In this document: piece by piece, positions 33,757 to 63,300 of the stretch
Position numbering within the stretch: position 1 is the first letter of the stretch
How the letters are laid out: every line of letters begins with the position of its first letter
Assembly (NCBI RefSeq): GCF_026151205.1
Contig: NC_087080.1
Location: 9,533,837-9,597,836 of the forward strand
Source: Bolinopsis microptera
Lineage: Eukaryota > Ctenophora > Tentaculata > Lobata > Bolinopsidae
Direction: 5' to 3'
Length of the DNA: 64,000 bases
Notes under the pieces: generated by a model
The model's input: the letters and a program-made list of their open reading frames with translations, nothing else
Databases searched by the model: none
Told to the model about the DNA's origin: nothing
Position numbers and translations under genes: made by a program

Positions 33757-36700
33757 TCTGGACACTAGATATTAATAATAACTATCAAGAGGTCACTCTA
33801 TCTGGACACTAGATATTAATAATAACTATCAAGAGGTCACTCTATCTGGACACTAGATATTAATAATAACTATCAAGAGGTCACTCTATCTGGACACTAG
33901 ATATTAATAATAACTATCAAGAGGTCACTCTATCTGGACACTAGATATTAATAATAACTATCAAGAGGTCACTCTATCTGGACACTAGATATTAATAATA
34001 ACTATCAAGAGGTCACTCTATCTGGACACTAGATATTAATAATAACTATCAAGAGGTCACTCTATCTGGACACTAGATATTAATAATAACTATCAAGAGG
34101 TCACTCTATCTGGACACTAGATATTAATAATAACTATCAAGAGGTCACTCTATCTGGACACTAGATATTAATAATAACTATCAAGAGGTCACTCTATCTG
34201 GACACTAGATATTAATAATAACTATCAAGAGGTCACTCTATCTGGACACTAGATATTAATAATAACTATCAAGAGGTCACTCTATCTGGACACTAGATAT
34301 TAATAATAACTATCAAGAGGTCACTCTATCTGGACACTAGATATTAATAATAACTATCAAGAGGTCACTCTATCTGGACACTAGATATTAATAATAACTA
34401 TCAAGAGGTCACTCTATCTGGACACTAGATATTAATAATAACTATCAAGAGGTCACTCTATCTGGACACTAGATATTAATAATAACTATCAAGAGGTCAC
34501 TCTATCTGGACACTAGATATTAATAATAACTATCAAGAGGTCACTCTATCTGGACACTAGATATTAATAATAACTATCAAGAGGTCACTCTATCTGGACA
34601 CTAGATATTAATAATAACTATCAAGAGGTCACTCTATCTGGACACTAGATATTAATAATAACTATCAAGAGGTCACTCTATCTGGACACTAGATATTAAT
34701 AATAACTATCAAGAGGTCACTCTATCTGGACACTAGATATTAATAATAACTATCAAGAGGTCACTCTATCTGGACACTAGATATTAATAATAACTATCAA
34801 GAGGTCACTCTATCTGGACACTAGATATTAATAATAACTATCAAGAGGTCACTCTATCTGGACACTAGATATTAATAATAACTATCAAGAGGTCACTCTA
34901 TCTGGACACTAGATATTAATAATAACTATCAAGAGGTCACTCTATCTGGACACTAGATATTAATAATAACTATCAAGAGGTCACTCTATCTGGACACTAG
35001 ATATTAATAATAACTATCAAGAGGTCACTCTATCTGGACACTAGATATTAATAATAACTATCAAGAGGTCACTCTATCTGGACACTAGATATTAATAATA
35101 ACTATCAAGAGGTCACTCTATCTGGACACTAGATATTAATAATAACTATCAAGAGGTCACTCTATCTGGACACTAGATATTAATAATAACTATCAAGAGG
35201 TCACTCTATCTGGACACTAGATATTAATAATAACTATCAAGAGGTCACTCTATCTGGACACTAGATATTAATAATAACTATCAAGAGGTCACTCTATCTG
35301 GACACTAGATATTAATAATAACTATCAAGAGGTCACTCTATCTGGACACTAGATATTAATAATAACTATCAAGAGGTCACTCTATCTGGACACTAGATAT
35401 TAATAATAACTATCAAGAGGTCACTCTATCTGGACACTAGATATTAATAATAACTATCAAGAGGTCACTCTATCTGGACACTAGATATTAATAATAACTA
35501 TCAAGAGGTCACTCTATCTGGACACTAGATATTAATAATAACTATCAAGAGGTCACTCTATCTGGACACTAGATATTAATAATAACTATCAAGAGGTCAC
35601 TCTATCTGGACACTAGATATTAATAATAACTATCAAGAGGTCACTCTATCTGGACACTAGATATTAATAATAACTATCAAGAGGTCACTCTATCTGGACA
35701 CTAGATATTAATAATAACTATCAAGAGGTCACTCTATCTGGACACTAGATATTAATAATAACTATCAAGAGGTCACTCTATCTGGACACTAGATATTAAT
35801 AATAACTATCAAGAGGTCACTCTATCTGGACACTAGATATTAATAATAACTATCAAGAGGTCACTCTATCTGGACACTAGATATTAATAATAACTATCAA
35901 GAGGTCACTCTATCTGGACACTAGATATTAATAATAACTATCAAGAGGTCACTCTATCTGGACACTAGATATTAATAATAACTATCAAGAGGTCACTCTA
36001 TCTGGACACTAGATATTAATAATAACTATCAAGAGGTCACTCTATCTGGACACTAGATATTAATAATAACTATCAAGAGGTCACTCTATCTGGACACTAG
36101 ATATTAATAATAACTATCAAGAGGTCACTCTATCTGGACACTAGATATTAATAATAACTATCAAGAGGTCACTCTATCTGGACACTAGATATTAATAATA
36201 ACTATCAAGAGGTCACTCTATCTGGACACTAGATATTAATAATAACTATCAAGAGGTCACTCTATCTGGACACTAGATATTAATAATAACTATCAAGAGG
36301 TCACTCTATCTGGACACTAGATATTAATAATAACTATCAAGAGGTCACTCTATCTGGACACTAGATATTAATAATAACTATCAAGAGGTCACTCTATCTG
36401 GACACTAGATATTAATAATAACTATCAAGAGGTCACTCTATCTGGACACTAGATATTAATAATAACTATCAAGAGGTCACTCTATCTGGACACTAGATAT
36501 TAATAATAACTATCAAGAGGTCACTCTATCTGGACACTAGATATTAATAATAACTATCAAGAGGTCACTCTATCTGGACACTAGATATTAATAATAACTA
36601 TCAAGAGGTCACTCTATCTGGACACTAGATATTAATAATAACTATCAAGAGGTCACTCTATCTGGACACTAGATATTAATAATAACTATCAAGAGGTCAC

Positions 36701-38200
36701 TCTATCTGGACACTAGATATTAATAATAACTATCAAGAGGTCACTCTATCTGGACACTAGATATTAATAATAACTATCAAGAGGTCACTCTATCTGGACA
36801 CTAGATATTAATAATAACTATCAAGAGGTCACTCTATCTGGACACTAGATATTAATAATAACTATCAAGAGGTCACTCTATCTGGACACTAGATATTAAT
36901 AATAACTATCAAGAGGTCACTCTATCTGGACACTAGATATTAATAATAACTATCAAGAGGTCACTCTATCTGGACACTAGATATTAATAATAACTATCAA
37001 GAGGTCACTCTATCTGGACACTAGATATTAATAATAACTATCAAGAGGTCACTCTATCTGGACACTAGATATTAATAATAACTATCAAGAGGTCACTCTA
37101 TCTGGACACTAGATATTAATAATAACTATCAAGAGGTCACTCTATCTGGACACTAGATATTAATAATAACTATCAAGAGGTCACTCTATCTGGACACTAG
37201 ATATTAATAATAACTATCAAGAGGTCACTCTATCTGGACACTAGATATTAATAATAACTATCAAGAGGTCACTCTATCTGGACACTAGATATTAATAATA
37301 ACTATCAAGAGGTCACTCTATCTGGACACTAGATATTAATAATAACTATCAAGAGGTCACTCTATCTGGACACTAGATATTAATAATAACTATCAAGAGG
37401 TCACTCTATCTGGACACTAGATATTAATAATAACTATCAAGAGGTCACTCTATCTGGACACTAGATATTAATAATAACTATCAAGAGGTCACTCTATCTG
37501 GACACTAGATATTAATAATAACTATCAAGAGGTCACTCTATCTGGACACTAGATATTAATAATAACTATCAAGAGGTCACTCTATCTGGACACTAGATAT
37601 TAATAATAACTATCAAGAGGTCACTCTATCTGGACACTAGATATTAATAATAACTATCAAGAGGTCACTCTATCTGGACACTAGATATTAATAATAACTA
37701 TCAAGAGGTCACTCTATCTGGACACTAGATATTAATAATAACTATCAAGAGGTCACTCTATCTGGACACTAGATATTAATAATAACTATCAAGAGGTCAC
37801 TCTATCTGGACACTAGATATTAATAATAACTATCAAGAGGTCACTCTATCTGGACACTAGATATTAATAATAACTATCAAGAGGTCACTCTATCTGGACA
37901 CTAGATATTAATAATAACTATCAAGAGGTCACTCTATCTGGACACTAGATATTAATAATAACTATCAAGAGGTCACTCTATCTGGACACTAGATATTAAT
38001 AATAACTATCAAGAGGTCACTCTATCTGGACACTAGATATTAATAATAACTATCAAGAGGTCACTCTATCTGGACACTAGATATTAATAATAACTATCAA
38101 GAGGTCACTCTATCTGGACACTAGATATTAATAATAACTATCAAGAGGTCACTCTATCTGGACACTAGATATTAATAATAACTATCAAGAGGTCACTCTA
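33757..38200. repeat. satellite: 101 copies of a 44-bp unit
   Basis: The unit TCTGGACACTAGATATTAAT + AATAACTATCAAGAGGTCAC + TCTA (44 bp) runs head to tail from 33757 to 38200. The length is 4,444 bp, exactly 101 units. The printed phase repeats every 660 bp (15 units) throughout, and no variant unit was found by eye. Single-copy sequence resumes sharply on both sides. Such uniformity implies very recent amplification or strong homogenisation, or an assembler-filled array whose true length is unknown. Confidence 0.97.
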
Positions 38201-39391: not shown

Positions 39392-42300
39392 ATGCTGGAC
39401 GACCTAGTGATGGACTACAGGAAACTGTACAAATGCTTCTCTGAGAGTCAGATTGACAGCATGTATCATAAGATACAGAAACTCTCGGAGAATAGCAAAA
39501 AGGTGCTCTACTCTTATTTATATTAATAAAATAACGTTAATTATAGTTAATAGTCGACTGTTTAATTTGAAAACTGAAAATTGTGATTAATTTTTTCGTA
39601 ATCTACCTTAACAGAATTGTTTGCGAGTCTCGAGATTCGTAGAACTTCCTTTTTTTATACACACAAATATTCAGTAGAAACACATTTTAACATTTTTCTT
39701 GGTTTTAAATTTTCCTCGTGTAACGGTAGAATTTTGTAGAATATAAGTATATTGCAGAAACTTGTATTTGTGTATTATATAAGTATATTGCAGAAACTTG
39801 TATTTGTGTAGAATATAAGAATATTGCAGAAACTTGTATTTGTGTATTATATAAGAATGTTGCAGAAACTTGTATTTGTGTATTATATAAGAATGTTGCA
39901 GAAACTTGTATTTGTGTAGAATATAAGAATGTTGCAGAAACTTGTATTTGTGTATTATATAAGAATGTTGCAGAAACTTGTATTTGTGTAGAATATAAGA
40001 ATGTCGCAGAAACTTGTATTTGTGTATTATATAAGAATGTTGCAGAAACTTGTATTTGTGTATTATATAATAATGTTGCAGAAACTTGTATTTGTGTATT
40101 ATATAAGAATGTTGCAGAAACTTGTATTTGTGTAGAATATAAGAATGTTGTTGTATTTGTGTATTATATAAGAATGTTGCAGAAACTTGTATTTGTGTAG
40201 AATATAAGAATATTGCAGAAACTTGTATTTGTGTATTATTGAGAATGTTGCAGAAACTTGTATTTGTGTATTATTAAGAATATTGCAGAAACTTGTATTT
40301 GTGTATTATATAAGAATATTGCAGAAACTTGTATTTGTGTATTATATAAGAATATTGCAGAAACTTGTGTTTGTGTATTATTAAGAATATTGCAGAAACT
40401 TGTATTTATGTATTATTATTGAGAACTTTTTCAGAACTCTTGTGAGGAGTTATCACGTGACAAAGTAGCTCTCCCCACTACTATAGACGCAGTGCGCGCA
40501 CGCCGCATTGAGCGCGCTCTCAAGAGTAAGATGAAACTGCTACACCAGAGCGGACCTAACTGCTTTATTGTACAGGTTAGATTTGTTTAAATTGTTAAGT
40601 AGAAGTTATTGATATAATCATTATCAAGCAATGTCAGATAAATAATTGAGTGCAAATACCACTTAGTCTGAGTCTGAGAATAAAGTTGTAACGAATTGAT
40701 CTTGTTATGGCAACCTGCCAATATTACAGTAGCCACTAGCCGAAGGATCAGTTAATTTTATGCCATGTTTTCTATTTTTATTCCATGTTTCTTCGTAATT
40801 ATAGCTCGATATAATTAGTAATTGGAAATTGGAGGCACCTTGCAGTTTGTAGGGTCGTATAATTTTACAAACTGCTGTATAAACTGGGTGCTACAGGTGG
40901 GGTTCCAATTATTTGTGCTATTAAAAGATACGCTAACTAATATTAATTAAGGGCCCTTATTAAGAGGCCTATGTGGGTGGAGAATGAAGATAATGATAAG
41001 ACCGATTATCCAAATCATTGTGCTGGTATGTAGTTGTTGGTATGTAGTTGCTCTTCTTATCGGCCCTGACTGGATTCCCTGTATTGAAAATGAAGATAGT
41101 TATAAATTATAATTAACAATAAATCATAAAATCCAACACTGTGTAGATAAAACGGTTCATGCATGCATAATAACGCGGCGTCTAATAAAGTTGCACAGGT
41201 AACCTTGACAAACCCTGGACTGCAGAGGAGGCCCATTATTAGGGGAGGCACAATAGTTACCAATAGTTACCAATAGTTACCAATAGTTACCAATAGTTAC
41301 CAATAGTTACCAATAGTTACTAATAGTTACCAATAGTTATCAATAGTTACCAATAGTTACCAATAGTTACCAATAGTTACCAATAGTTACCATTAGTTAC
41401 CATTAGTTACCAATAGTTATGGTTCACTCACTCTACCTAATACAGCGTAATAGTTAAACATCTGGTTAATCGTGAAGTGTGGAAATAGTGAAGGGAGGTG
41501 TCATTATACGCGTCAATGATAATTCGTAGTTTCGCTTTGTTTCCAGTATGTTTGATGCTAGATTTATTACGGCTGGTAGGGCGTTTGCTAATGAAAACAA
41601 CATGAAAAACTACTAGTGTACTACTCATAATCAGACTTGAAAATCTGAGACTATATGTTCGGTATCGATAACAAGTTCCCTGTTCAACCAACTACCATGC
41701 TCCAAGTAGTTCCTGAATCCTGGGACAAGGGCAGTGCCAGACGCCACTTCTGTAAATCCTGTCATGTACGTACATTGTGCAATGTGCGTGGAGTTCAGAT
41801 AGGGTAGTTAAGTTTCACCAAGTTGTAGTCGGTAGATGAAGAGCCAATACCGTGTAGTTATGCGGTAAGATTTTGGCGAAGCGTTTGTTTTTGTTTGTGC
41901 TTCAGGCTATAAAATCTAAAACTATCAGAATTTCGATTAACTAACTTGATTAACTTGATACGCCTCAAATATTTTGAGTAATTTGTCAAAATTTTGAGGA
42001 CTTAGTCAATATTTTTGTGTTCAATAACGGTGAATGAGCAGATCCGATACCCATGCTGCATTTCCAGTTGTATATTATATTACCAGCTGTATTACCAGTT
42101 ACTCAACAAATACAAATACCCTTCTTGGACATGTTGTGGTGACCTGATAAAGAACATTCTCCACCAATACCACCGATACGATTGACCGCTCCAGTTCACT
42201 TACTCATCCTAATTATTTAGGTAACATAACCCTTTCGCCCTACTGCACCCAACCACTACCAGCCTCGTAAACCAAATTATGAAATCCGAAATTCGGGCTT

Positions 42301-45300
42301 TTGAGTTTCCATCCTGCCGTTCCGGTGTATTTAAGTCTTGTTTTGTGATGGTTAAGTGAATTAGTCTTCTACTGTTTGTGAGCAGTAGAAGTAGTAGTCT
42401 CACGATGAACTGATACGTGTCTGTAAGAAGGGTTACTTGGTAACCAGTACTGAGTACTCTGTATATTTCCTGACATTATAGCTTAACTCTCTTATGTTAA
42501 TAGAACGTTCAGGACGGTCTTCAATCAATTATATAGGCTTCGCTATTTTTTTAAATGTGATTTTAAATCCTGAAGATTTGTACCTATAATATCCAATTTG
42601 ACCATTTCCCCCCTTTCCTGTCAATAAACAAAGCTCATTTAAGGTTGCTGACCTAAATGTCAAAATATTTCGCTCGTTTGATGGTCATAGCGCTTATTAT
42701 TTAGCCCTATTTAGCGAAACATCTTGGTCAACCTTGCAATGTGCTCTTGTTAAATTGAGACAGCTCTTTCACAGAAATTTAAATTTGCTCTCATTCTTGT
42801 GCTGCCAAACCTAATATTGTTTATTCGACGCTTTTTTAATGACGCTTATCTACGGATCAACTTTCCGAATTTGTTGACGTCATCATCTCGGTTTGTTGAC
42901 GTCATCGATCCCGGTTTGTTGACGTCATCATCTCGGTTTGTTCACTAAAACTTTACCACCTGGTTTATGAAATATGAAACGCAGAGTAAGTATATTAATA
43001 AACTTCAGCCGCTTTAAATCAACATTCCCCGGTCCTACTTGTTTTATTTTGCGTAAAGTTTCGTCCGATTATACTGCTATGCTAAAAAATACGAATATCA
43101 GCCTGGCTGATTAGTTATTTGGTGACTCAAATATTCCTGGAATATTTTATCTTTTAGCAGGTTAATATATACATATTGTAACCAAACTAATATCTAGCTT
43201 ATCGAGTGAAACATCGTTATCATGACCTTCGACTTCAAAACGGGGTCAACCCACGAAAAGGCTATAAACTACACCATGGGGGTCTTCACTATCGTGTGTG
43301 TCATCATCTCCACCCTCCTCAACCCCCTCATCTTCTATGTCTACACTAAAAAGTCAAAGTCAATCATGAACTTTCTGTTCAAGGTGATAGCAGTCTCGGA
43401 CTTTCTAACGAACCTCTTCCCTGCCACCTTCATCAGCTATGTGTACCTTAGCCCCACTAAGTTCGACCAAAAGTCGTTTCTCAACCAAATTCCTGAGTTC
43501 TTCTGCTGCACCTTCGGCTGCATCTCTCAGGTGACGGTCACCTTGATGGCCGTCGCTCGAATGATAAAGATCATCCGTCCCTTCATCAGTATCAAAGTCA
43601 GGTGGGTCATGGGATATCTCACATTCTACGCTGTCTACATGGCGCTAGGAAATGCTGGGGCTCTGGTTATCGCCGGAGTAAATGGAGAGAAACCGTACCA
43701 TGCCAAACTGAAGGTGGTGAATAAGTATGCCTGCTTCACCATGAACATGATCCACTGCTTCATCGGACTCGTCTGCAGCCTCATCACTGTTGCCTATCTC
43801 TGGATAAAGATGAAGAAGACTGACAAAGAATCTCTGAGGTTGAAGCTGCGGAGCTCCAACACCATCCTGCTGATGAACATCCCTTACGTGATCTCCATCG
43901 TGGCCCACTTCCTCGCTCTGCACCCCAACCTGGGGATCAGCCTGTCCCTGGTGAAGCACTACACCATCCCCGTCCTGACCAGCGCCTTTAACCCCTGTGT
44001 AATTGTAGCACGAACCAACACCCTCAGGTCTGTCCGGGCTACATTCGGTGGTTCTAGTGAGATGCAGTCAACAACCCAGAACAGGACCCAGAAAAGCACT
44101 ACTCATGAAGCTACCTCTGTTGCTGCTCACGAAATGACCTCTGTCGCACCTCAGGGATCGCACATTTAGCGCCAACAATCAGCATCTAGGATTCTCGAAG
44201 CCTTGATAACATTCCAAACTTTGATCAACAGTAAAGACTGAATAAAAAAGAAACATGCTGCTGCTGTTGAAAGTAGATTCAAGGAATTAGTTAATGACAG
44301 TAAAAACAAGCTTTCCAGCTAGCATTCCAGGTTAGTGAGAAAGACGGGAACTGAATGTTGTTCTACGATCAAGACTCATAATGGACTGAGGCAACTTTGT
44401 AGTTTCAAAATCTTACTTTTGATTATTAAACCGTGATGAACCCCTAAATTAGCAATGATAATTAACGTTTTCAGTTTTTGGTTCTTCAAATAAACTCAAT
44501 AAAACCACTCTCTATCGACCGTATCAGATAATCAGATAGGAACAGAAGCGGTAATTGAGACAGAAAACATTGTATGTATAATGTACAATGTATACATATG
44601 TAATGTATATTAGGATACTGATCATACAGAGATTGTATTTGATTGAGATACATATTACATAACATTTGTTGGAGTACTTCAATGTTTTTAATTAAACGCA
44701 CATTATAATCATTTTTGTATTTTTGTTTAGGTGTCATCTCCATGTCGCGAAACACTTGCTATGCTTTTTATTTTAATTTTTTGTGTGTATTTGTGATGAA
44801 TTATTGATATTGTTTTCTAAAACGTGTGAAATAAAGCATTTTAAATTTTACAAACCTACCAGTACCACTTCTGAAACACTGACGAATAATCTGATTATAA
44901 AACCAGGGTAGTATCCAAGTAGCCCGACACGTGTTCGCGAACAGGTGTTTTCGAACAGGGTTAGGGTTAGGGTTAGGGGTAGGGTAAAGGGTTAGGGTTA
45001 ACCTTAACCATAACCATAACACAGCTGTTCACGAACACGTGTCAGGCTACTTGGATACTGCCAAAACCAGCTCTCCAAGTATATTCTATCTTGCTCTCAA
45101 TTTGCAATGTCAAGTTACACTATACAAAATGAAACAACAGTTTTAAGAACCAAGTAGTATAGATGACATCACGAACAAGAGAGTTATATAACATTAAATT
45201 ACTTTGAAACACTCACATTTGTAGCACTAAATTATGTAAAAATGGCGAACAACCCTACCCTCTTAATCTCTCAGACTGTTATCTCTCTATCGCTAACTTC

Positions 45301-48300
45301 TTCACGCAACCTGTTCCTCCCTGTTATACGTTGCAAAGTGAGTTAGCTCATGTCTCATGCATATTATGCAGGTAGATTGTTAAAATAAGCACCATTCTTC
45401 GCTCAATAACATACTTGACCTACCCTAAGATGAGAAGTACGTACCGTACCCGGCTTAAAGTACGTACGGTACGAGGTTTTTTATTAGTACGTACCGTACA
45501 ACCACTAAGTTTAAAGGGGAACCGAACACGAGGGCGTACGACACAAGGGCGGTACTTTCTTAAAAGGGCGGACACAAGGGCGAATCACATGAATCACTTT
45601 AACATGGATAAACGGGTTTTTTGATGTTCTCAACAGTCTGGTTGAGATAAAGCTTAACTCGAAGAATTGGACCTACTCACGTTTAAATTTGATACAAAAC
45701 ATAGTGAATTAGTGATGTCACAAATAATCACCCAGATTTAAACGAGCCAAACATTGAAAGATTTTCCTTAAATATCTCAGCCAACTCAGCAGCAGATTTT
45801 GGGGTTTGGTAACATGCTTAGACCAACCAAACACTGCCTAGGTATTCATACGACAAACTTGGCATTCAAAATATTGCAGTCGCTGACACTACGGTTACCC
45901 GGGTTTAGATCAGGGGTAGTACGTACCAAAACGGGTATTTACTTTGGGACGAATTTCACTGAGATGTGTTCACTCAATTTCAAACCATCAATCCTCTCAG
46001 TTAAACTGTTAAAACTACCATCATTTAGGACGTTTTTTCTTCCGCCTTCGTGTTCATACTAAAATGAATCATGTGATTCACCCTTGTATCTACGCTTTTA
46101 GGAAAGTAACGCCCTTGTTTCCTACGCTCTCGTGTCCTCCGCTCTTGCGACTTGCAGCTACCGCCCTTGTTTTCTACGCTCTAGTGTCCTATACGACATT
46201 TTTCTAAAAAAATGGTGCCCGTTTTTTACCTTATTTTTCTATTATTGTAAAATTGGCAGGTATGAATGCAATTTTCAGACCACGATTTTGGTGTCAGTGA
46301 ATGCTAAAGTCGAATTAAACAATTTTTAAGGCAATAAATTAATTCGAATAACTGCAATTATACTCAATAGGAGTACGTACAGTCATACTATTCTAATGAT
46401 GGAAATAAGAATGCGGCGACATAAGTCTAGGTTCCCGTAGCGCCATTTCAAATATTCCTGTTATTATTTTGTCACGAAAGTCGGACTTCAATCGAAAACC
46501 CATTTATAAATCGTACTTTATAACCAATTTTATTAATGTATTCTGGGTAAAATTATCTTTATCCCGGTTGTTGCGACAAGTAAAAATGCTCTTATTAGGG
46601 AAAGGAGATTACTCGACGTTTCAATGTAACTACATCGTATTCATGATCTCAAATTATTTGTTATATAGTAGTGTTGAAAGTATTAAAAAATTTTTAATAC
46701 TTTCAACACTACTATATAACAAATAATTTGAGATCATGAATACGATGTAGTTACATTGAAACGTCGAGTAATCTCCTTTCCCTAATAAGAGCATTTTTAC
46801 TTGTCGCAACAACCGGGATAAAGATAATTTTACCCAGAATACATTACAACAATGCGACTCATAAATAATACTCCAATCCGGATTTTACACAATTTTATTA
46901 GTACGTACGATACAGCCATTTTAAAAATTACGTACCGCACGAACTTCTCATCATAGAGCATAACCATAACCATAATCATAATCATAACCATTAACCATAA
47001 CACACCTGTTCACGAACACCTGTTCGCGAACACGTGTCGGGCTACTTGGATACTGATAAAACTAGCTCTCCAAATATACTCTATCTTGCTCTCAATTTGC
47101 AATGTCAAGTTACACTATACAAAATGAAACAACAGTTTTAAGAACCAAATAGTATAGAGTGACATCACGAACAAGAGAGTTAATAACATTAAATTACTTT
47201 GAAACATTTGTAGCATTAAATTATGTAAAAATGGCGAACAACCCCTACCCTCTGAATCTCTCAGACTGTTATCTCTCTATCGCTAACGTCTTCACTGAAC
47301 CTGCTCCCCCCTGTTATACGTTGCAAAGTGAGTTAGCTCATGTCTTATGCATATCATGCAGGTAGATTGTTAAAATAAGCACCATTCTTCGCTCAATAAC
47401 ATACTTGACCTCCCCCCACTCTCTCCTTCAGTCCTCCGGCTTCAGCAATTATATTTACTGAAACTCCCCGCAGAAGCCAGCATCTTCCTAATGTGGGCCT
47501 TTAGAGCAGCTGTTTTATTATTTGTGGACCTTTTTCTCAATCTTTGAGATTGTTTGACCTGTGACTTTGGCGTCAGTCATCAGGGGTAATTGCCATTATG
47601 TTTAGAGCTTTACTGAAAACTTCAGATTAAAACAACTCGCGGGCATAGAAATGACCTAAACCACGTTCCCAGACACGCCCCATCTTAGCCCTAACATGTT
47701 ATATTTTGATACCCGTGATACCGTCTAGTGCGGGACAGAGACCTTGAGAGCTCCAGTACAAGTCCTCCTCGCACACTAGGTTCCTTAATCATTACTGCCT
47801 CACTACATTCCTGGGCACACTAGGTTCCTTGATCATTACTGCCTCACGACATTCCTGGGCACATTAGGTTCCTTAATCATTACTGCCTCACCACATTCCT
47901 GGGCACACTAGGTTCCTTAATCCTTACTGCCTCGCCACATTCCTGGTGTTTGACGAAGAAATTCTAATTTTTCATCAGAATTCTAAAATTGATTTAAGTA
48001 AATATCCGAGTACAATATTTATTGACCGGTTTCAGATTGGAGTCACTTGGCTGAGGAAGCTGTTGGCAATGCCCTTAATCATAAATTACAATTAACTGAT
48101 TAATTAATTATAAATCAACCGCTAATTACGTCAACAAGTCATTCAGTAGAGGGAATCTGGAAACTTCTAAATAATTGAAACACATAATTAATACAATTAA
48201 TTTCGTTTTGATAAAGGATCGTGAATGTATCTGATACCAGGAATGTGAGCAAGAGAAAGTAATCAGGCAGCACGTGACTCATGATCGCAAGAAAAGGTAC

Positions 48301-51300
48301 AAACCTTATCGAGTATGGAATATCGTGTGTGATTATTATGGAATATCTTGTGTGACTATTGCGACTGTTTTGTTTTGTACCTTTACATTTGTTGAATTTC
48401 GCCTTTATGTGGTTAAACTACATTCATTAACTTTGACGTATGCAGTTGATATATGATGCCCTTATGTGGCTATTTGATATTTACTATCTCCCTGGTAGAA
48501 ACAGGTTGCCACTAGCTTTAGTTTTTACCTTACCTTTGATACCTTTAATCTGCTTCGTCGAAACTCGACAGGCCATCAGAGTTGCTGACCACCCCAGAGA
48601 GCAGATGCCTCTCGATCATTACGCCAGTCCAGATTAGAATTGGAGTTCGGTGATGTGAAGCCCCGGATTGGCGGTTTATCCGGCAGGATTTTCCACATGT
48701 GCATGACAATGTAACGTTCTCTGCGCCTCTGAAGTGACATGAGGGACAGGGTTTTCAGGCGATCCCAGTAATGGAGATGCTGTAAACCATGGATCTTTGA
48801 AGTGAAAGTTCTTTTTACACTTTCCAGCTCCTGAATGTCATACACTTTCGCCAGATTCCACAGTGGAGAACAATACTCTAAAATGTTTATTCTATGGCTT
48901 CTAGTCTACCATATTCACTTTATAAGAATCAACTCGGCAGCAAAAGATACTGCTGAAATATAACAGGATTATAAAAAGTACGTTTTTCTAGTTTCATTAT
49001 TTCCTTAGTATGTGGCCGCACATTTTGCACCTCTGGTTCAACCAGATCCGATTTTGACATCCGCCTTTTGTTTAGAGTGGCTATTGTTAAAAGTTCCTAG
49101 GGCGACTTTATGGCCACCTGACGGTGAAGGTGTAGTAAAGGTGTTGTAAAGGTGTTGTGAAGGTGTTGTAAAGGTGTTGTGAAGGTGTTGTCTTCTACTG
49201 TAATCATGTCAACTGGTAAATAGTGTCTAGAGTTGTAACTGTGAACTAAACAGTTCCTTTACCTGACTACAAATCTACTGTTAGAATCATAAAACATGGC
49301 CTTCACTCAGTTTCACATAGTTCACTGCTTCACTGGGTTGCTGCTTTTTGTTTCTGAACAAATGTTTTCCGTCTTCTTGCTGCACATCTTTTCAAATTGC
49401 ATTCCTAATTGTCAATGACATCTTATATAACCTACCAAAAGTTCCAGAATAATCTAGAATAATCTGATGATGCGTCCTAATTTAATTGAACGGCATTTGC
49501 TCGTTAGACATGTCCTGATTGAGCTAAGTGAGCTAAGTGAGCGATCATTAGGTTATTAATTAAATAATTAGGTTATTAATTAAGTTATAAGGCGTGTTAA
49601 TCGGTTTCAATCTAGTAGTATCGTTCGTTGGATTGCTTGATGAGTTTGAACTCAGAAATTTTAATTTGTTCTCAATTTTACATTGTTAATTACACAAAGT
49701 TTTGAGTGATCCAGTCAGTTCCAGTTCATCAGACTTATCTTGTCAAGGCCAGTCCAGATGAACATTTGGTAACTCAGTAATCTGCCGATGCACAACTGGG
49801 GCACACCTCGGGCACACCTCGGGCACAAACTCGGGCACACCTCGGGCACACCTCGGGCACAAAGCACACCTCGGGCAGAACCACCTGGGGCACATCTCGG
49901 GCAAAATTCGGGCATGGTAATTGGGAAACCTTGGGAAAAGAACCTGGGCACACCCGGGGCACATCTCGGGCACATCTCGGGCACAGATGTGCATCGGCAA
50001 ATTACCGAGTTACCGAACATTTTGATTTGTATATATATTGGTTGTTCTCTATTTCATACATTCTCCGTACAAATTAAAAGGCCTCATGTAGCCGGTGGGC
50101 CCGACATGATACGACATATCTCGACACGTCGGGGTTTGTCGGGGTCTGTCGGGATATGTTGGGGTTTGTCGGGGTGTGTCGGGGTGTGTCGGGGTGTGTC
50201 GGGGTTTGTCGGGGTTTGTCGGGGTTTGTCGAGCCTGGAGGCTACATGAGGCCTATTAAACAATCGGTCGCAAATCACTAGTTCCATGAGAATAATAATA
50301 CCGACGAGCATAATATCCCCACAGAAATGACCGTTAAGATATAAATAGTTTCATGTTAATTATAGTTCCCACTTGCCGAGTGTTTCATTTGTGTTATAGT
50401 TCATGATTTACGTGTACTTTCTATGAGCAAACAGGGAATAAAACTAGTTACAAATGCTTTGACAACCTCATTAAGGAATGAAACATTTTGTTGATTGGAT
50501 GCTCTCCTAGATCACATGATGGAGATTTACGAAGTTGAACCCAACACAACGTATGAACCCTACTTGAACTACCCACTGGGTATATTTGCAGCTGGGTGTG
50601 CTCTTATCTCAACCATCATCAACCCTCTTATATTCTACGTTTACAATAAAAAACAGAGATCAGTGAAGAACTTTCTATTTAATGTGACGGCGGTATCCGA
50701 CTTCTTAACGAACCTTCTTCCAGCAACTTTTGTTTGTTATGTCTGTTTCAGCTCAACGAGGTTTAACCAATACACACTTTTAAACCAAATTCCTGAGTTT
50801 CTCAGTTGCACTTTGGGATGCGTTTCTCAAGTTACAGTCACCTTGATGGCTGTTGCTCGCATGATAAAAGTCATCCGGCCTTTCTTTAGGCTAAAATTCA
50901 AATGGGTCAAAGCATACCTTGTGTGTTACACGATCTATATGGTGCTAGGAAACGGTGGCTTTCTCCTATTGGCGGGAATGACTGGTAAGAAAGCTGTTAC
51001 AAATACCAACCTGTTCATTATTGAAACGTGGAACAAGTACGTTTGTTTTGCCATGAACATGACCCACTGCTTCCTCGGCCTCACTTGTAGCTTTATCACT
51101 GTGGGCTATCTCCGGTTAAAGGTAGGAGGAATAGGTGAAGATGCCAACAAGATGAGGGGTTCTAACACCATCCTTATAATGAACATCCCTTACGTCATCT
51201 CCCTTGTCACTAACCTCCTCGCTCTCCAACACCATGGGATTAACTTTGACCTGGTCAATCACTACATGATCCCCATTTTCACCAGCGCTTTCAACCCATG

Positions 51301-54300
51301 TGTCATTGTGATAAGGTCCAAAGCAATCAGGACTCCAGCTCGCTCTGTTTTTAAGAATATGATCTCTGTTTCGTCCAAGTCTGCTGTTTCTGTTCCTGTT
51401 TCTGTTCCTGCTGCTGTTCCTGCTGCTGTTGAGTATTGAATTCAATCCATCGACTTCTTAGTTCTTACGATGAAACCGATTTGGCATAATATTTGAACAA
51501 CGAATCAGTTGGAGTGACACGAGCACAGAAACGTGACCACAGTAAAACATCAACTACACGACTCACGTGTCTATGCTACAGAAGTCACGTGACCAATTAG
51601 CGCGCACCGATGAACAGTTTTCCCATGACCACGGAAATCGGAATGCAATTCAACTTGTTTTGATAATAATAAAGTGATGCCAGAAGTGGTTTAAGTTTCA
51701 ATGTATAGTTTTAGAACACACATTTGGCATACCAAATGGTGGATTTTGCCAGCGGGTCTGTCTAATTAAGGGAAATCGACAGAGGATCTATCAGTTTATT
51801 TGCTAACCCGGGTCATCCCGCTAATTCTCACCCAAAACTCGGAGCAATCTATTGTACAATCAACTATGAGTTTATTTTTATTACATTGATAGAATTTAGA
51901 TGATAATAATGTGACATGATCTGTTTCATTTGATTCATAAGAGAGACTACGATAATGTTTTGTTTATCATTTTTTAATCACTGTAAAATTCAAAATGTAC
52001 TAATAACGGCATGGTAATTGGTATCATGTCAGGTTAAGTTTATAAGTTAAAGGTGACTTGCTTAAATCTCAAATTAAATGAAATAACAGCTTTGTAAAGT
52101 CGATGTGATTAAAAAAGATAACACATGCACTCTGAAGACGCAAACGTCCCTTCTTCTTCCTCTTTCAATCCAAAAACATCTCTTACTTCTCTTCCTTCTT
52201 CTCAAGCTACAGTTTTGACAGCTAAAAACCTCTGATGGAATGTTTCCTCCTACTTTCTCAACCGTGGGAAGTGTGCCTCGCGTGACTCTCTCTGTGCCTT
52301 GTGCACGCAGCACCACTAAAAAATGTTAATAAATGCTACAGAAATCTTTCCTTACAACAATAATTGTTCTTTGTACATAGATTGTTTTGACTAATCCAAA
52401 TGGCCATGGCCAAATTGTAATGTCGAAAAAAAGAGTTAAAAATGCCGGTAATTGCAGTCCATTCTCTCTGTTTTGTTATGAAATGAATTCAAGTATCGAA
52501 TGTTGATATTTGTTGATACCTCCAAGTGTTGTCGCGACTTGAAAATTCGAAGTGCTCTGAAAATGACCGTGGACTTTCTGACGGACTCACGATATGAACC
52601 CTACTTGAAGTACACGTTTGGAATCACAGCAGTTGTGTGTGCCCTTATCTCAACTGCTCTCAACCCAGTATTAATTTACTTTCGCAACAGGGGAAAACGA
52701 ACGGTCAAGAAATTTCTTTTCAATGTTATCTCGATAGCGGACTTTTTGACAAATTTTCTATCTGCTGGTTTCATCGGCTATGTCATTCTCAGCCCGACAA
52801 AGTATGATCGAAACATGTTCTTTCAAATAACAGAGTTTCTGTGCTGCACACTAGGCTGTATTTCTCAGGTCACAGCTACCTTGATAGCCATTGTACGCAT
52901 GATACAGATCATCATGCCCTTCTTCAGCGTCAAGTACAGAATGGTACTGATCTACCTCTTCTGTTACTCCCTCTACATGACCCTAGGAAACGTGGGAATT
53001 GTTTTATTTGCTGAAAAGAGTGGAATACTAAAGAATTTCGGCATAGTTGCCTCGTTAAAGTTGATTAATATGTACGTTTGCTCCACCATGTATATGCTCC
53101 ACTGTTTGGTAGGAATCATCTGCAGCATAATCACAGTCTTCTACCTCTGGGTAAACATAATATATCATAGAAATGATAAAGAAACCATGAGAAACGATAA
53201 AGCAGCCTCCAGGTTGAAGGTAAGGAGCTCCAATACGATCCTGCTGATGAACATCCCTTATGTGATCTCCATAGTCATTACTTTTCTAGCTCTGAACCGA
53301 AACATTGGCATGGACTTTTCTCTGGTTAAACATTACATGATCCCCATGGTGACAAGTGCTTTTAACCCTTGTGTCATACTAGCGCGAACTAGCGTGCGCC
53401 GATCTTCTCTGCCTGGTCGAAAGAGAACAAGACGATATCGTCGAATTTTGCAGCCAAAGTTCCAGCAGGTAAAGATTCGACAAATTGATGCTGAGGCTAC
53501 TGGAGAAAATCATTTGAGACGAAGAAGGTCATCTACTTTCTAATATTCTAAAGTCGATCTGGTGTCAAAAATATTATTTTAAGTGTGGACAAAAATTAAA
53601 AAAGGGTCGTGTACTATTTTTCGATGACTTGAATTTTTACTCGATTTTAATTTTCTGGTTCTTGGTGCGAAGAATTTTTTACACTCACATACTCTTTCAA
53701 ATGATGATTCTCGTGCGACATAGTGATTCTGTTAATTGCGACAAGGAAACATGCCTTTTTCAGGGAAAAGGAAATGATGATCTCAATAAATACAAATGTA
53801 TTTAATTGTAGTTGTGAAAATGTTTTAAAAAAACTAGAAAATTAGCTTTAGAACTATTTAAAACTGGTTTTCCTTTCTTCGCTGTTCTATTTTAAGTTAC
53901 ATATATTATGATATCTCTACATGTATTGATACATATTATGATATCTCTTTAAGACTCTGTTTTATTGTTTGATTTATAGCATTGCAAACCAAACTTTATG
54001 GCAGCTAACCCTCATCATCTCCCGTTACTTCTCGGAAATCCCTAAGAATGAGTCCAATTGTAGCGCAATGCTCTTGGGCTACAATGTATGCAAGTATTTG
54101 CAAGTTTGTTGGATCTCATTTCTATTGAAGTTAGTACTATAGCTTACGGTAGATGTATTGTGTTTACTGATACCTTGTCTATTGTCAGCACTGTCAATTA
54201 TGTATGACAAAGCAAATTCCAGATGGAAGTGTGAATAAAAGCACTAATGCTAAGTGGATATTCTTATGACAATGGTAATGGAAATATCTTACAAATATTT

Positions 54301-57300
54301 GGGCGTCCTTGCCACAATGTATCTGTAAGAAACCCGTATTGAAGATACCGAATTACCAAGAATTCTGCATATTACAGCGTCCTTGTGTATTCTGAACCCT
54401 TTAATTTTGTACCGTCACAATAAAAATCGAAGAACTGTTTTGTTGTTGTGATAGCCATATCAGATTTGCTGACCAACCTTTTTCGCTCGGTCAGGCCTCA
54501 AAAGTACAGGAAATATCCTTTCTTTCAATGTCCGCCCTGCTCCTTTTCATGATAAACGTCCAAGCATATAACATTGGTTTGTACTTTGTAGGGACGAAGT
54601 GCAGTAATGTACCGAACTTTCCTTCTTATCCCATATTAGATGAAGTTAAAACAGACTGTGTACCAAGTGTTGGGGAGTCAGCTGATATTCTTCACTGTAC
54701 AAGAAACATCACTTTAAAAACACTTAAAAATATATTTAACTTTTCTGAATTGTTTGTTTCTCTTAAGTCTTAACTATTGTGTGGTAGTCTTTGACGTAAT
54801 AGGCGATCCGAATTATGTCTAAAGATTTAAGGACATGACAATGCCTGAATTAAAATATTCTGTTGGATGGATCCGCAACTGCATACATCAAGAGCTATGG
54901 TGACAGACAGTACATAGAAAGATTGGCATAGCGGCAGTGGGCATAATGTGGACGATTATTAGGTATTTCAAGTATGTCAATATAGATATGGGTGGTGGTG
55001 AATAAGTAAATAACAATGGTATGCCTAAAAGCGAGACCTATTCAGGTATTTTATTTGTCCAATAGTAGAGCAAGAAGAACTGCTTACTAATCAATTAATG
55101 AAGGATGGCGTCGAAACTTTCACATGCAGTCCAACATGCAGCTGAGACACAGTAGCCAAGTAATTTCTATTTTTTCATTGTTTGCCACTCGATTCAAGTT
55201 ACAGTGTTAACTGTATGACCTTCGACTTTGAGACCGATTCACGGTATGAACCATACCTGAACTATTCGCTTGGTGCCTTCACCATCCTCTGTGTACTTGT
55301 TTCCTCTGCTCTGAATCCACTTATTTTGTACTTTCGCAATAAAAAGGAACGGACAATCAAGAACTTCCTGTTCAATGTCATAGCAGTATCTGACTTTTTG
55401 ACGAACCTTTTGCCAGCAACCTTCATCGGATATGTGTTTCTCAGCTCGACGAAGTTTGACCAATACACACTTTTAAACCAAATTCCTGAGTTTTTCTGCT
55501 GCACTTTGGGATGCGTTTCTCAAGTCACAGTCACCTTGATGGCTGTCACTCGGATGATCAAGATTATCAAGCCCTACTTGACGATATATTTTAAATGGGT
55601 GCTATCTTATCTAGTTCTCTATACTATCTACATGGTTCTTGGGAACGCTGGATTTCTCCTGTACGCAGGATTAAATGGTTCAGATGAGAAGGCGGGGAAG
55701 AAGATGGAACTGGCTATCTTGGACTCGTGGAACACGTATGTTTGTGCTGCTATGAACATGTTCCACTGTTTCTTAGGGATCACCAGCAGTTTTATCACTG
55801 TCGCCTACCTCAGGATTAACATGAGGGGAATTGGAGATCAGGTGTCAAAAGTTAGGGGCTCCAACACCATACTCATCATGAACATTCCTTACTTGATCTC
55901 CATTGTCATCAACTTCTTGGTGCTGTCTCAGACTATCAAGATAAACGTTGGTCTGGTTAATCATTACATGATCCCAATATTAACAAGTGCCCTCAACCCC
56001 ACTGTTGTTTTGATGCGAACCAACACGCTCAGGTCCGACATTGCCGCCTCTACCTATCAGTCAGGATCACAATATGGACGGTTGTCGAGTAAACACAGTG
56101 GCACTGGTCGCCGGTTGAGGAAGGACTCCAATCCTTTTATTTTACAATTTTCAAGATTGCAGCCAAGTTCCAGTCTCAAATGTGACCACTCGCCAAATTG
56201 ATACATGGATATAAGATCCGAGCTTGTTCGTATTTAATTTGCTCCTGTTACTACTGCTGCTTGTAATACTGTTACTACTGCTGATTGTAATACTTTTGTC
56301 AGAACTTTGACTTGATACTTCTAGTATTTACAGAGAGAAACTCAAGATGAAATGACCCTGTAATGAGTTAAAAGCGGCTTTTATGCTTTTCTAAATTTCT
56401 TTGCTGTGGTGTTATGTTTTATTTTTGAAAATGTTTTATAACAAATTGTTATTACTGCATGAACCAAGTACAACTAAGATTATGTGGCAGGATTACAGAA
56501 ACGGGACGCAGCCTTGTAAGGATTCATGTTCCAAGAAATTAGCTCTATTCGTGAGGAGGAACGAATAGGAAAATTAAAGTTAAACAATAACCAAGCAGGG
56601 TAAAGCTTACCATGGTCCAGTTTCAGATAATTCGAATTCTTGCTATTCAATTAAGACAGACTTACGTTATACGTAAGTTGCTTTAATTGAGGCTACATTT
56701 TCAAAATCAGCCGACAGCCAAACCACGGTTGGTCAGATTTTATTATTTTTTTTAATTTGTAGCTCAGCCGGAACAACTATTCCAATGACTCTCGTTCCAG
56801 CAACTTTTGATACTGCTAAACTGCACAACGCCCTCGTGACACTGATCACACGTGTTTGCCCTCGTGTCCGCCCTCGTGACACTGATCACACGTGTTCACT
56901 CTTCCTATCTTATTATTGCTAATCTATAACTTTTTCTGCTTCGTGGTGATCATCATATGAACTGAAATATCTGCTAATATTCAGAATCACAATCTTCTTT
57001 TGCGGTACCTTGTTACAATAGATATGTTAATTGTACAACTGTACCGCTGGTTCAATAATTTGATCAAAATTCTTCAACTTGTGAAGAATCCATCGGAATC
57101 TAGTTGGTCATCACAAACCATTCTCAGTTACAGACCGACCGTCAGTCTCCTTCTAGGTATGCAAATATGTGATTAGTCGCATAAAAGAATCACAATAGGA
57201 AGACATAGTTCCCTTTCAGATGTCCAATTAGTCTAACGACTAATGCGATAAGAACCGTTGTCTGAACACATACCTCGGGAATGAAATTAGGACCTGCCAG

Positions 57301-60300
57301 ATCATGTGGTAGCAATAATAAAAGCTATATCTTTGCAACTTTACTTGTTTACCTTGCCTGCCATTTTATCTCAACATGACATTTGATTTTGAGACCAATT
57401 CACGATGGGAACCCTTTCTAAACTACTCATTTGGGTTCTTCACGATTGTGACTGTCCTTCTCTCCACCATCCTCAACCCTCTTATCTTGCACCTCCGACA
57501 AAAGGAAAAAAGATCAACAAGAAACTTCTTGTTAAACGTTGTTGCAGTGTCGGACTTTTTGAGAAACCTACTTCCGGCAACTTTCATCAGCTATGTGTTC
57601 CTCAGCTCGATTGTGTTTGATCAATACACGTTCTTCAACCAGGTTCCTGAGTTCTTCTGCTGCACATTTGGTTGCATTTCTCAGTGCACGGTCACCTTGA
57701 TGGCGCTCGACCGTATGATCAAAATCATAAAGCCCTTACTTAGCATCAAGTTCAAGTGGGTCCTGACCTACCTTGTGTGCTACACAATCTACATGGTCCT
57801 AGGAAACGCTGGATTCCTCCTGTATTACGGAATACAGAGCACCCAGGAGACGGAGGTCGGCAGTGAGAAGTTTACTGCTGTGATGACGTTCCTAGAGTTG
57901 TGGAACAAGTACTTCTGTTCTGTAATGAACTTGTTCCACTGCTTGCTAGGAATACTGTGCAGCTTCATTACTGTAGCTTACCACCGCATGAACAGCAAGG
58001 CAGTAAGCCAGTACCACAACATGAACGAGAAGAAGAACGGGGAACAGGCCTTGAAGTTGAAGGAATCCAACACAATCCTCATCATGAACCTGGTCTACGT
58101 GGTTTCCATCGTGTTCAGCGTACAGCTGCTTCTGGGAAGTCTGGATTTGAACCAGGGTCTGTTCAGCCATTACATGATCCCTATATTCACTTGCGGCTTC
58201 AATCTCCTTGTGGTGGTCACCAGAACGGATATTCTCAAGAAGAAGATCTACCGTTCAGTCTCCCAAGTTGGTCGGCTTAGCAAAAAGGCTGGCAGGATTA
58301 GCGCGGTGGCTATTTCCAATACCATGAAATCGTCCATGAAATCTTACGTGTGAACACTGAACATCTGCCTCCAAAACTATATTCTGCTCCAAGGGTTTTG
58401 ATTCTTAGATACAATTTGGCGCCAGAGAAGAGGTTGTCAACATTTGGGTGTTTGGGATGAACGCCAGCATTTAAACTGCAGTTTGAGAATGAAAAGATAT
58501 TCCTTTTTGGATCTACTTAAATAGGAACTTTAGTTTGATAGTTACTATTTGTAACTTTATGGTGCAGAACGAAATAAGGGGTTGTTCATATATTATGACA
58601 TAATCTAGCTTAGGGAAAAGGGGTTTGGAAATGTATACTACTACTACCACAACTATATGCCAGTGTTATTTCTACCCAGAAGCTATGAGTACAGTGACGG
58701 TAATTAGGAGTGAGGATAAAAACAATTTAATTAACCAAAAAAATGTAATATGTGAGCATTCCGTGATAAGACCCTCACAAAGGATGTCAAAAAGCTTGTT
58801 GATTTTGTTTTGTTGCGCTATTCTTTTGTTTTGCGCTTGACTTATGTTATCTTCAAACTTCTTTATTAGATTATTTTATTTCTTTGTTATTTGGGATTAG
58901 TATTTTAACTTAATTCTCGTGGTCTAAATAAAAGTACATGATCTTAATGAAAGATAATTCGATGGATTTATTATTAATGAAATTTGGAATATTTGAGGGA
59001 TAGATTAAAAAACTGTTGTTTGGACTGAGGAGTAATTGTTTGGGTTAAATATTTTTGAGAATTGTACTTGTAGTGCGTTTCATTATCATCTTCCTAATAT
59101 TGACATTCATTAATTGTTTAAACACGAGTACAAAGAAACTCGATATTGATTAAGAATACGAGTGAGGGAAAATTACCATAAAAACTTTCGTATTAATGGA
59201 TTAATTGACTAATCTCAAAGTTGGCCGGTTAGTATAAAATCAATAAATCAACTAAACTCATATTACGCCAACTAATTGATAGCGCAATTAACTAATTAAC
59301 CAATTAACCAATTAACTAATGAGTAACTTTACCCAGACGGAATCAGGACGAAAGTACCGAGTGATGATTGGACTCCAGTCTTGCAACTGTAACAGAGGTT
59401 ACTTCTGTTCTCATCTCCTGTTTGTCATGCTGCGAGTCCTCAACGTCTCCTCCAGGGATAACATGCTCTGGAGCCGGAATCTCAAAAACTTCGAGGTTAG
59501 CTTTTGCGATTATAATTAGATATTAATTGCTTGTTTCCTTGAGATTTTTGATCACCGATGATTAATGATTAAAAAGTTAAGATTCCTAATTCATACCCAA
59601 TTGCTCTATCATCAGAAGTTTTAAAACAGATTCTCAGGTGGAACAACTGATTAAATCGTACGAGGAGAAGTCATCCGATCCCAGAAAACAGCTCAGAGGA
59701 CCTCATGGGCACAGGTATCTTGATAACTAATCTTCTTTATATTATTCAACTGTATGAAAAATATTAGCTGAAATCACAGGTGGTTTATTCTGTTTCACCT
59801 TTACAGAGTTTTCTAACTTAGACTGAAACTCTAAGTCTCGCTAGCTCACCATTACCTCACCATTACCTCAACATACCTTCCTTCCTCACCCTTACCGTCC
59901 GCAGTGAACAGAAGGCAGGGCTGGAGAGTCAGGAGAGAGCGGAAGGAGGAGCCGGGACGAGCGAGGGGTCGGCTGATGAGGACGCGTGTCCTATCTGTCT
60001 ACAAAACATGGAGTCAGGGGAGAAACTGGTTATTTGTAGGGGAGGGTGCAGCAATAAGTTGCATCATGAGTGTATGAAAACATGTGAGTACTTCTTCTAT
60101 ATGCTCGCAGTAATGACACCAGCCAAATTAAATTTGGGATTGATATAATTTCAACTGAACAAGTTTTTTACCCCATCATCCCATCATTTGATAACGTGAT
60201 GGCTTTATCAGGGGCACAGGAGCAAGAGAAGAGAAAGGAGAGGCTAATGTGTCCACTGTGCCGCTTCCTCTGGCACGACATAGACTCTTTCGAGTTCACT

Positions 60301-63300
60301 GGACACGGGGCCCCACTTGTAAATGTGAACAATGAGGTGGTTCAGGGTCCGTATCAGGACCCCTGGTTGCAACCGTTAGTGAGTCTACCCAACCCAGAGT
60401 TGGTGAAAGAGAAAAGACCCATCCCTCCCCAACACAGATCCCTCACACGCTCCTGGGTTCAGGTTCGTTTTATTTTAACTGACCTTTTACTTAATTTCCT
60501 CTTTTTCTTGAACGCTGACATTATGTTGCACGTTTTGTTTCACTTTCACTTTCACTTTCACTGATTGCCTAAATCCTGATTGCTCCTTGTCATACTCCTC
60601 GGTCAATTATTAATGTCGTACTGGTAAACTATTTGAACATTTTACTTACCAAACCTATACCGCGGTCGCTGTTGCTTTTTCTCCCTACAATGTTTAACTT
60701 CACACGTCTTATACCCACGTACACAACACACACCTATTCTTTCTTTTCGTACATCAGTCTTCAAAATGTGGCCCAATTAGCTGAAAACACACAATACACG
60801 CTATGTTACAGCTAGTGATAATTAGGTTGAGGTTACCGGGCCAATTGAAACTTAGCATGTTATTATCATGTTGTTAATTAGTGTGATTATTATGAGCCGG
60901 TAACTGAAGTTTATGAATTATATTACAAAATATTAATTAGTTAAGTAAGAATATTTATTAGTTTAAATTTGTAGGTTTAAATTATCATAAAACACTTAAC
61001 AGAAATATGGACGTGACTTTTGATGATAAGTCTAGAGCTTATTTATTTTTACAGTGATTATACATGAACTTATGAGCATTGAGCATCCAGATAGAACCAA
61101 TCAAAATCAAATGTTAAAAGTTAAGTATGTGCAGCTTCCTTGAAGACAACCTCGTCAATTGGCAGTTGGCACGAAGTAATTTTTGAAGCTTCCGCATAGA
61201 ATTGGGATTGCATGTAAATTATATCAAAAAACGTGAGCAGTTCTAAAAATAGTTGCTAACTAACAATAACCTGGCAGATGTTCGGGAGTGACGTAGTTAA
61301 AGGACTGTTCTCCAAAGAGTGGACGATAAGAGAAACCTCCCTGCGCTGGCTGGGCCAGCTGGTAATCTCCCTGTTCCAGGAGCGCCGCTCAGCAGTGGAC
61401 CTCAACGGCCAGAGTGTCAAGATCACCACTCTGCAGGAGTGTATGGCCTCCCTGCTTTGTTACATGATCATGGATCCTGTCCATAAGGTAACGGTTCCAA
61501 ATGGTATTGATGACTGGGTCGATCATCTCCCTGGTCATTAGCACATAAGCATGAAACCAGTCTGGTATGTCATCAACGTTCGAATCTATCAAATGGTACC
61601 TTGAAAAACATTAAATATCTAACCTTCACTGTCTTCTTCAGGTTTACATGATAGCCCTGGCTGTTACCCAAGCCGTAACGATATTCTCAGCTCCTGAAAT
61701 CAAGAGTTACCTCTCTTTTATATTCCAGCCTGTATTTGAGGCTATATTTATCAGATGTACCGACCCCACCAGGTGAGCATCCTAACACTAGGTACTCATC
61801 CTATAAAACATTGTCCTGGTAATTGACTAGATAGACTGAGATAGACAACAACTTAATTACTTCCATCTCAGACGAACGTACCTGAACTCGTCTGATTTCC
61901 TGGTGTACCTGTGCCGGTACGATGAGAACGGGTCCAGATTCGGAGGAGTAGACTACCTCTTCTCCTTCTCCCTCAACACTCACAATAGTCCCGAGGAGTG
62001 GAGGTGGTGGCTCGGCAGACTCAGGGTGGGTAACCAGGGTGGGTAACCAGGGTGGGTAACCAGGGTGGGTAACCAGGGTGGGTAACCAGGGTGGGTAACC
62101 AGGGTGGGTAACCAGGGTGGGTAACCAGGGTGGGTAACCAGGGTGGGTAACCAGGGTGGGTAACCAGGGTGGGTAACCAGGATGGGTAACCAGGGTGGGT
62201 AACCAGGGTGGGTAACCAGGGTGGGTAACCAGGGTGGGTAACCAGGGTGGGTAACCAGGGTGGGTAACCAGGGTGGGTAACCAGGGTGGGTAACCAGGGT
62301 GGGTAACCAGGGTGGGTAACCATGGTAGGTTACCAGGGTGGGTAACCAGGGTGAGTAAGTGTAACCAGGGTGGGTAACCAGGGTGGGTAACCAGGGTGGG
62401 AACTAGGGTGGGTAACCAGGGCCGGGTGGGAACTAGGGTGGGTAACCATGGTGGGTAACCAGGGTGGGTTCCTGTCTAATATAATAACCATCATACTTTT
62501 ATTTTTCATTCGCTTTCTAAATCTTTCTTGTCACAATGCATTGAACACACTCTCTCTGTCGCAAAGGCCAATCCCCTAATATTGAGTGATCTAACCTCTA
62601 ATGGTATGACAGGTGCTACTCCGGCTCCTGACAGAGCGACCCCTCTACTTCACTCTACCTGAGAAAAGAGACCCCCAAGTTAAGGATAAGGCTCCAAGAC
62701 TCTCCAACTACGGTGATATTCATCTCGACAGGTATGCAAGATTGTTATCTCGTTTGATGGTATGGCACTGCTTATTTGGCAGCAGCCCAAGTTTTACTAT
62801 TTTCTATAGGTAGATCTCTTCGGCGTATATATTGTTCAACTCTGTATTTTATATCGAGCTTATCGATACAGATTCCAGAAAATATATGTTCACTGTTTCA
62901 GTACAAGTATGCACAAGCGATTGTTCAAGATTATTGACTTTGCGATACAAGGAATGGCTATCTCTCACTTTAGCGTGAGGAAAACGGGTTCAAGAGTCCT
63001 CAGGGAATCAATAAGGTTTGGAAAACTTTTAATCGTCCAAATGTTTTGTTATACTCAATACTCTTACACAAATTTCCTAATATCCAATGCAATTACTTCA
63101 TTTGTTCACAAAATATTAAAGGGATAAAACAAAAATACAAATTTGTCCCTCTCTCTAGGAGAGCCAGTAAAGATCCTGACGCCCTGATGGAGATTAAGAC
63201 CCTGTTAACCTCCCTCGGCAGAAACAGTAACCCAATGTTAACGATATACGCATCAGTACTCAGAGAGGAGGCTCTCAAGAAACATAAATCTTCCCCCGAG

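Follow-up and report, generated by a model that had tools for sequence, protein, structure and literature searches.

Five receptor genes of one subfamily nested in a single intron of a predicted MAP3K1 ortholog in the ctenophore Bolinopsis microptera

The window analyzed here, a 64,000-nucleotide stretch of the Bolinopsis microptera genome (contig NC_087080.1, positions 9,533,837 to 9,597,836), contains five uninterrupted genes, R1 to R5, predicted to encode class A-like G protein-coupled receptors (GPCRs), each of which lies, by its coordinates, inside one intron of the host gene model, an apparent MAP3K1 ortholog. An earlier reading of this DNA (hereafter the original prediction) had proposed that the receptors are nested within one intron of a MAP3K1-like gene, and this is borne out by the coordinates and by host homology on both sides of the array. 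We consider it quite likely that the locus as a whole represents an old nested GPCR array that grew by local duplication, whose members would use their own promoters and which the host would splice out as an intron.

The host gene was modeled as eight consecutive exons on the + strand (39392-62025), chained by hand with GT-AG borders, starting from two peptides given in the original prediction. Because exon borders were chosen to preserve the reading frame, the continuous phase is in part a product of construction, and the weight of the model rests on homology. The first modeled coding exon (exon 1, 39392-39502) begins with an ATG and joins exon 2 through a GT donor and a phase 0 splice; homology support for exon 1 was not found, and an additional host exon upstream of it is possible. 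Further upstream, the segment 31080-31196 is preceded by AG and followed by GTAAGT and may be an exon, either of the host or of another gene. Exon 2 (40435-40575) encodes the N-terminal part of the MEKK1 SWIM region and aligns to PDB entry 9p40, exon 3 (59337-59495) the SWIM zinc finger, exon 4 (59822-60083), whose 5′ border is the least certain in the model, the first part of the RING domain, and exon 5 (60212-60462) the RING end. The TOG region is distributed over exons 6 (61278-61487), 7 (61642-61772) and 8 (61872-62025), the last of which carries its end. Kinase exons follow on the same strand and extend to about 6.6 kb beyond the window.

The spliced host protein contains SWIM (PF04434, 22.4 bits, cut-off 19.6), followed by RING (PF13639, 36.4 bits, cut-off 27.3), and TOG (PF21040, 51.5 bits, cut-off 24.3), while the downstream exons encode a kinase domain (PF00069, E 2.4e-64). 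Structural entries agree with this assignment: the MEKK1 SWIM-RING structure 9p40 aligns to the spliced protein with an E of 3.4e-41, and the MAP3K1 structure 6whb aligns to the TOG region with an E of 1.5e-16. In a protein database search that scored just the 7990 candidates sharing the most words, the top six of 93 matches were named MAP3K1, all from carnivores. Together, the four domains and the 9p40 alignment uphold the MAP3K1 identity originally proposed, and the host gene appears to be a MAP3K1 ortholog with SWIM, RING, TOG and kinase in order on the + strand. Exons 2-5, searched against the genome, returned five matches, four at the MAP3K1 locus and one relative of 28% identity on contig C3; a second MAP3K1 locus was rejected, this relative being all that was found elsewhere. 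At the sensitivity of that search, the ortholog thus seems to be single-copy.

The intron that holds the receptors, host intron 2 (40576-59336, +), measures 18,761 bp, is phase 0 and has GT...AG borders: exon 2 ends at 40575 and is followed by gttag, and exon 3 starts at 59337 after cccag. The remaining six modeled introns are 932, 326, 128, 815, 154 and 99 bp long. The 9p40 alignment runs from exon 2 into exon 3 with a one-residue gap. In a residue-by-residue comparison with four database proteins, cat and suricate MAP3K1 cross the exon 2/3 junction with one gap residue and protein P0037 with two, and protein P0038 gave no match. The phase 0 state claimed for both junctions stands in the exon model, and the claim that the equivalent peptides are contiguous in vertebrate MAP3K1 holds insofar as cat, suricate and 9p40 align across the junction, but for one gap residue. 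Because both flanks are part of one gene, the intervening 18,761 bp are read as an intron, and a single host gene spans the whole receptor array.

All five receptors lie on the + strand, as the host does, and have uninterrupted open reading frames of 307-347 aa, in agreement with the five intact, intronless and co-oriented receptors originally described. R1 (43222-44169) encodes 315 aa and scores 474 bits against the hidden Markov model (HMM) of the family; R2 (50516-51439) encodes 307 aa and scores 466 bits; R3 (52500-53543) encodes 347 aa from its first ATG, although the start aligned with its paralogs is at 52563; R4 (55215-56201) encodes 328 aa, and its AlphaFold model has a GPCR fold; R5 (57376-58353) encodes 325 aa. 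This shared orientation should not be counted five times over, since a tandem duplicate inherits the orientation of its source. The sixth, broken receptor of the original prediction exists as a receptor-like trace, but it is reduced to a marginal, frameshifted remnant of about 105 nt on the + strand (about 54383-54489), whose two pieces cover just profile positions 31-68 (E 0.005 and 0.013).

An alignment of 31 family sequences, comprising R1-R5 and 26 of 30 database relatives (four near-copies were excluded), shows N34, D60 and R113 to be invariant and N261-P262 nearly so; we take these to be the class A hallmark residues of transmembrane helices 1, 2, 3 and 7. The seven-helix GPCR fold was found as well, and the family profile matches EP3 and invertebrate rhodopsin chains with E values of 3e-6 to 5e-4, solely over the first 126 of its 313 positions. 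R1-R5 are described here as predicted class A-like GPCRs without introns in their coding frames.

The subfamily is concentrated in this intron. When the family profile was run over 314 kb (110 kb upstream of the window, the window itself and 140 kb downstream; frames of at least 30 aa), no members beyond R1-R5 were found at E <= 1e-3, so an extension of the array past the intron was rejected. In the whole genome (264.65 Mb, 232 contigs), a family search that scored 122 of 181 candidates, and whose counts are accordingly lower bounds, returned at least 58 matches, at least nine of them with 52% identity or more and 49 others with 44% or less. Among the matches of 52% or more that were listed, five lie in the MAP3K1 intron, one on contig C1, one on C3 and two on C6. 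With five of at least nine close matches, the MAP3K1 intron is therefore the main known seat of this receptor subfamily.

As to origin, we propose that the MAP3K1 intron acquired a founder intronless receptor in host orientation, which multiplied in place through local duplication and so swelled the intron to about 19 kb. The flanking host exons would bound the array, since their loss would break MAP3K1. Pairwise synonymous divergence (dS) among R1-R5 is 1.5-2.5, and recent retroposition of the receptors from one another is consequently not supported. R1-R5 are intact, long diverged and constrained, and the best explanation of these sequence features would be an old array maintained under purifying selection. 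The closest database matches have identities of 97% for R1, 89% for R2, 80% for R3, 99% for R4 and 93% for R5 (the 30 database relatives were found with R4 as query). If these matches come from other ctenophore species, the five receptor lineages would be older than the splits between those species; this is not certain, as some of the matches may come from the same species.

Several observations weigh against this interpretation. In the family tree R1-R5 are scattered among the database relatives and form no clade, with five changes required, and the tree does not show the simple expansion of a single founder inside this species; to judge from it, either the array is older than some ctenophore splits or members have come and gone between loci. 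The dS values are near saturation, which makes the selection ratios rough. R5 is the only receptor to exceed the Pfam 7tm_1 cut-off (38.0 bits, cut-off 30.5); R1 and R4 score 13.8 and 9.7 bits, below it, R2 and R3 give no match (R2 matches no Pfam family at all), and 7tm_1 is matched at E <= 0.001 by two of the 31 members of the family alignment. Finally, independent promoters are assumed, while host splicing from 40575 to 59337 and separate receptor mRNAs are predictions.

With regard to expression, each receptor probably has a separate promoter, from which it would be transcribed independently of MAP3K1 to end at its own poly(A) signal, and host transcripts would splice out the entire array as an intron. 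Same-strand nesting also permits an intronic operon, in which the receptors ride on MAP3K1 pre-mRNA, are freed by spliced leader (SL) trans-splicing and internal polyadenylation, and have their expression coupled to the host; we regard this as unlikely. SL trans-splicing has been reported in ctenophores, and in Hormiphora 56% of the Iso-Seq reads carry a leader (PMC8527503). An AATAAA lies within 600 nt after four of the five receptors, R4 having ATTAAA only. Leader-like motifs cluster in the genome: eight of 55 sites with at most two mismatches sit on the + strand of one 98-kb segment of contig C13 (C13:12796641-12894453), seven of these eight followed by GT, which makes the segment a candidate spliced-leader gene cluster. 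At up to three mismatches, however, the motif occurs barely more often genome-wide than the control (238 + 214 against 195 + 214 sites). The 120 nt preceding each receptor start likewise hold no better acceptor-like sites than the background does: by a crude score not trained on ctenophore sites, as high a score is reached by 0.23 of background windows for R1, 0.38 for R2, 0.92 for R3 (0.53 when its second start is used), 0.60 for R4 and 0.92 for R5. A more elaborate version, in which a regulated intronic operon would use SL trans-splicing and internal poly(A) sites to choose, per nucleus, between the MAP3K1 kinase and one of the five receptors, all from a single transcription unit, strikes us as distinctly improbable.

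Poly(A) signals are not depleted on the host strand of the intron; if anything they are in excess on both strands, AATAAA occurring 21 times on the host strand against an expectation of 13.4 +/- 3.8 and 23 times on the opposite strand against 14.9 +/- 3.8. As they have not been purged, host transcription, if it runs through the intron, must pass these signals. Neither the AATAAA counts nor the acceptor-like site scores give a sign of special sequence adaptation to nesting, and the interference or coordination between receptor and kinase transcription raised in the original prediction is conjectural. An SL gene inside the window was considered and rejected, as the pattern AATTTGAGGTA is not above chance there (one match, 2.8 expected). 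Elsewhere in the genome, twelve tandem copies of a variant of the leader-like motif lie about 513 bp apart at C8:7889749-7895419, and a second leader-like pattern, which may be a leader or a repeat, has 28 sites against one in the control, of which 12 end in GGTG, 13 in GGCA and three otherwise.

There is a very small chance that the arrangement is an assembly artefact, with the receptor cluster misjoined into the MAP3K1 locus. Long tandem arrays before exon 2 and after exon 8, a short tandem array (59285-59320) ending 16 bp before exon 3, and the local duplications and long palindrome within the intron are features that could favor such an error, and gaps were closed by program if the assembly is the published B. 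microptera one (PMC10232365). Against this, neither the window nor the surrounding 314 kb contains an N, and hence no marked gap; both halves of the host are the sole close matches in the genome, in the correct order and strand; and the artefact would require two misjoins, with no long repeat array at either edge of the intron. Scarcely credible is the notion that exons 1-2 belong to another gene and that MAP3K1 begins at exon 3: neither exon 1 (37 residues) nor the opening 21 residues of exon 2 have an aligned counterpart in 9p40 or in cat and suricate MAP3K1, but the rest of exon 2 (residues 59/60-84) aligns to all three, continuously with exon 3 apart from one gap residue, and the reading frame fits across exons 2-3.

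The nested array that we favor shares its intron with a duplicated non-coding stretch (44907-47415), in which pieces of two copies lie about 1,990 bp apart and are 93-98% alike; genome-wide, just these two copies are near full-length, and another 16 matches cover no more than 39-47 bp at its end. Duplication inside the intron has therefore also taken place more recently. Overlapping this stretch is a near-perfect palindrome (46527-46853) with arms of 163 nt, 98% complementary, and a spacer of 1 nt. Around the host exons, tandem repeats comprise a 44-bp unit in about 100 near-perfect copies at 33760-38200 (from 38000 on as called by Tandem Repeats Finder), a 36-bp unit repeated about 19 times at 39741-40416, ending about 20 bp before exon 2, and a 13-bp unit repeated about 34 times at 62022-62469, which begins at the end of exon 8, so that the exon 8 donor lies inside the repeat. 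A GIY-YIG reading frame, presumably Penelope-like, is present twice in inverted orientation, at 19111-19743 (-) and 20608-21813 (+), the shorter copy being the C-terminal part of the longer, and an uninterrupted reading frame that we take to be actin-like (L011:775-1974) lies about 14 kb past the kinase exons of the host, on their downstream side. Scanning the window for tRNAs and for Rfam families (at gathering thresholds) gave no matches.

The locus points to the intron of an unrelated signaling gene as a place where a receptor subfamily can expand and be retained over long periods, bordered by the host exons. Since host and receptors share a strand, it is a natural test of how host splicing is separated from nested polyadenylation, in an animal group with SL trans-splicing and many nested genes. 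RNA-seq and Iso-Seq reads went into the annotation of the published B. microptera genome (PMC10232365), and these existing data could answer the question of transcription, provided that they derive from the same species.

The comparison with known systems places this array among described cases of nesting. In Hormiphora californensis, 1654 hosts are reported to carry 2357 nested intronic genes, many of which run parallel to their host; as here, these genes sit inside single introns, and one figured host holds four of them; the array described here differs in that five tandem paralogs of one subfamily share one intron, an arrangement not mentioned in the available part of that report (PMC8527503). 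Mammalian OMP, a gene of sensory neurons with separate cell-type expression, similarly lies within an intron of CAPN5, a gene to which it is unrelated, but it is a single, non-receptor gene rather than a receptor array (PMC6549253). Human tandemly arranged nested genes, which are likewise single-exon, same-strand and protein-coding, interfere with host transcripts, such that the host may show upstream exonization or intron retention; those cases have transcript evidence and number one to three per host (PMC3192792). Lineage-specific GPCR expansions of ctenophores offer a further parallel, with clades that radiated independently and vary in copy number; genomic nesting is not discussed in the available portion of that study, where the word "nested" occurs 0 times (PMC13231562). 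No described case of a five-paralog GPCR array in one MAP3K1 intron was found in the searches made of the open-licence literature, in line with the original prediction, which knew of no GPCR array inside MAP3K1. Gene-in-gene nesting is thus already known to be common in ctenophores, and the MAP3K1 receptor array is a new and unusually large case of it.

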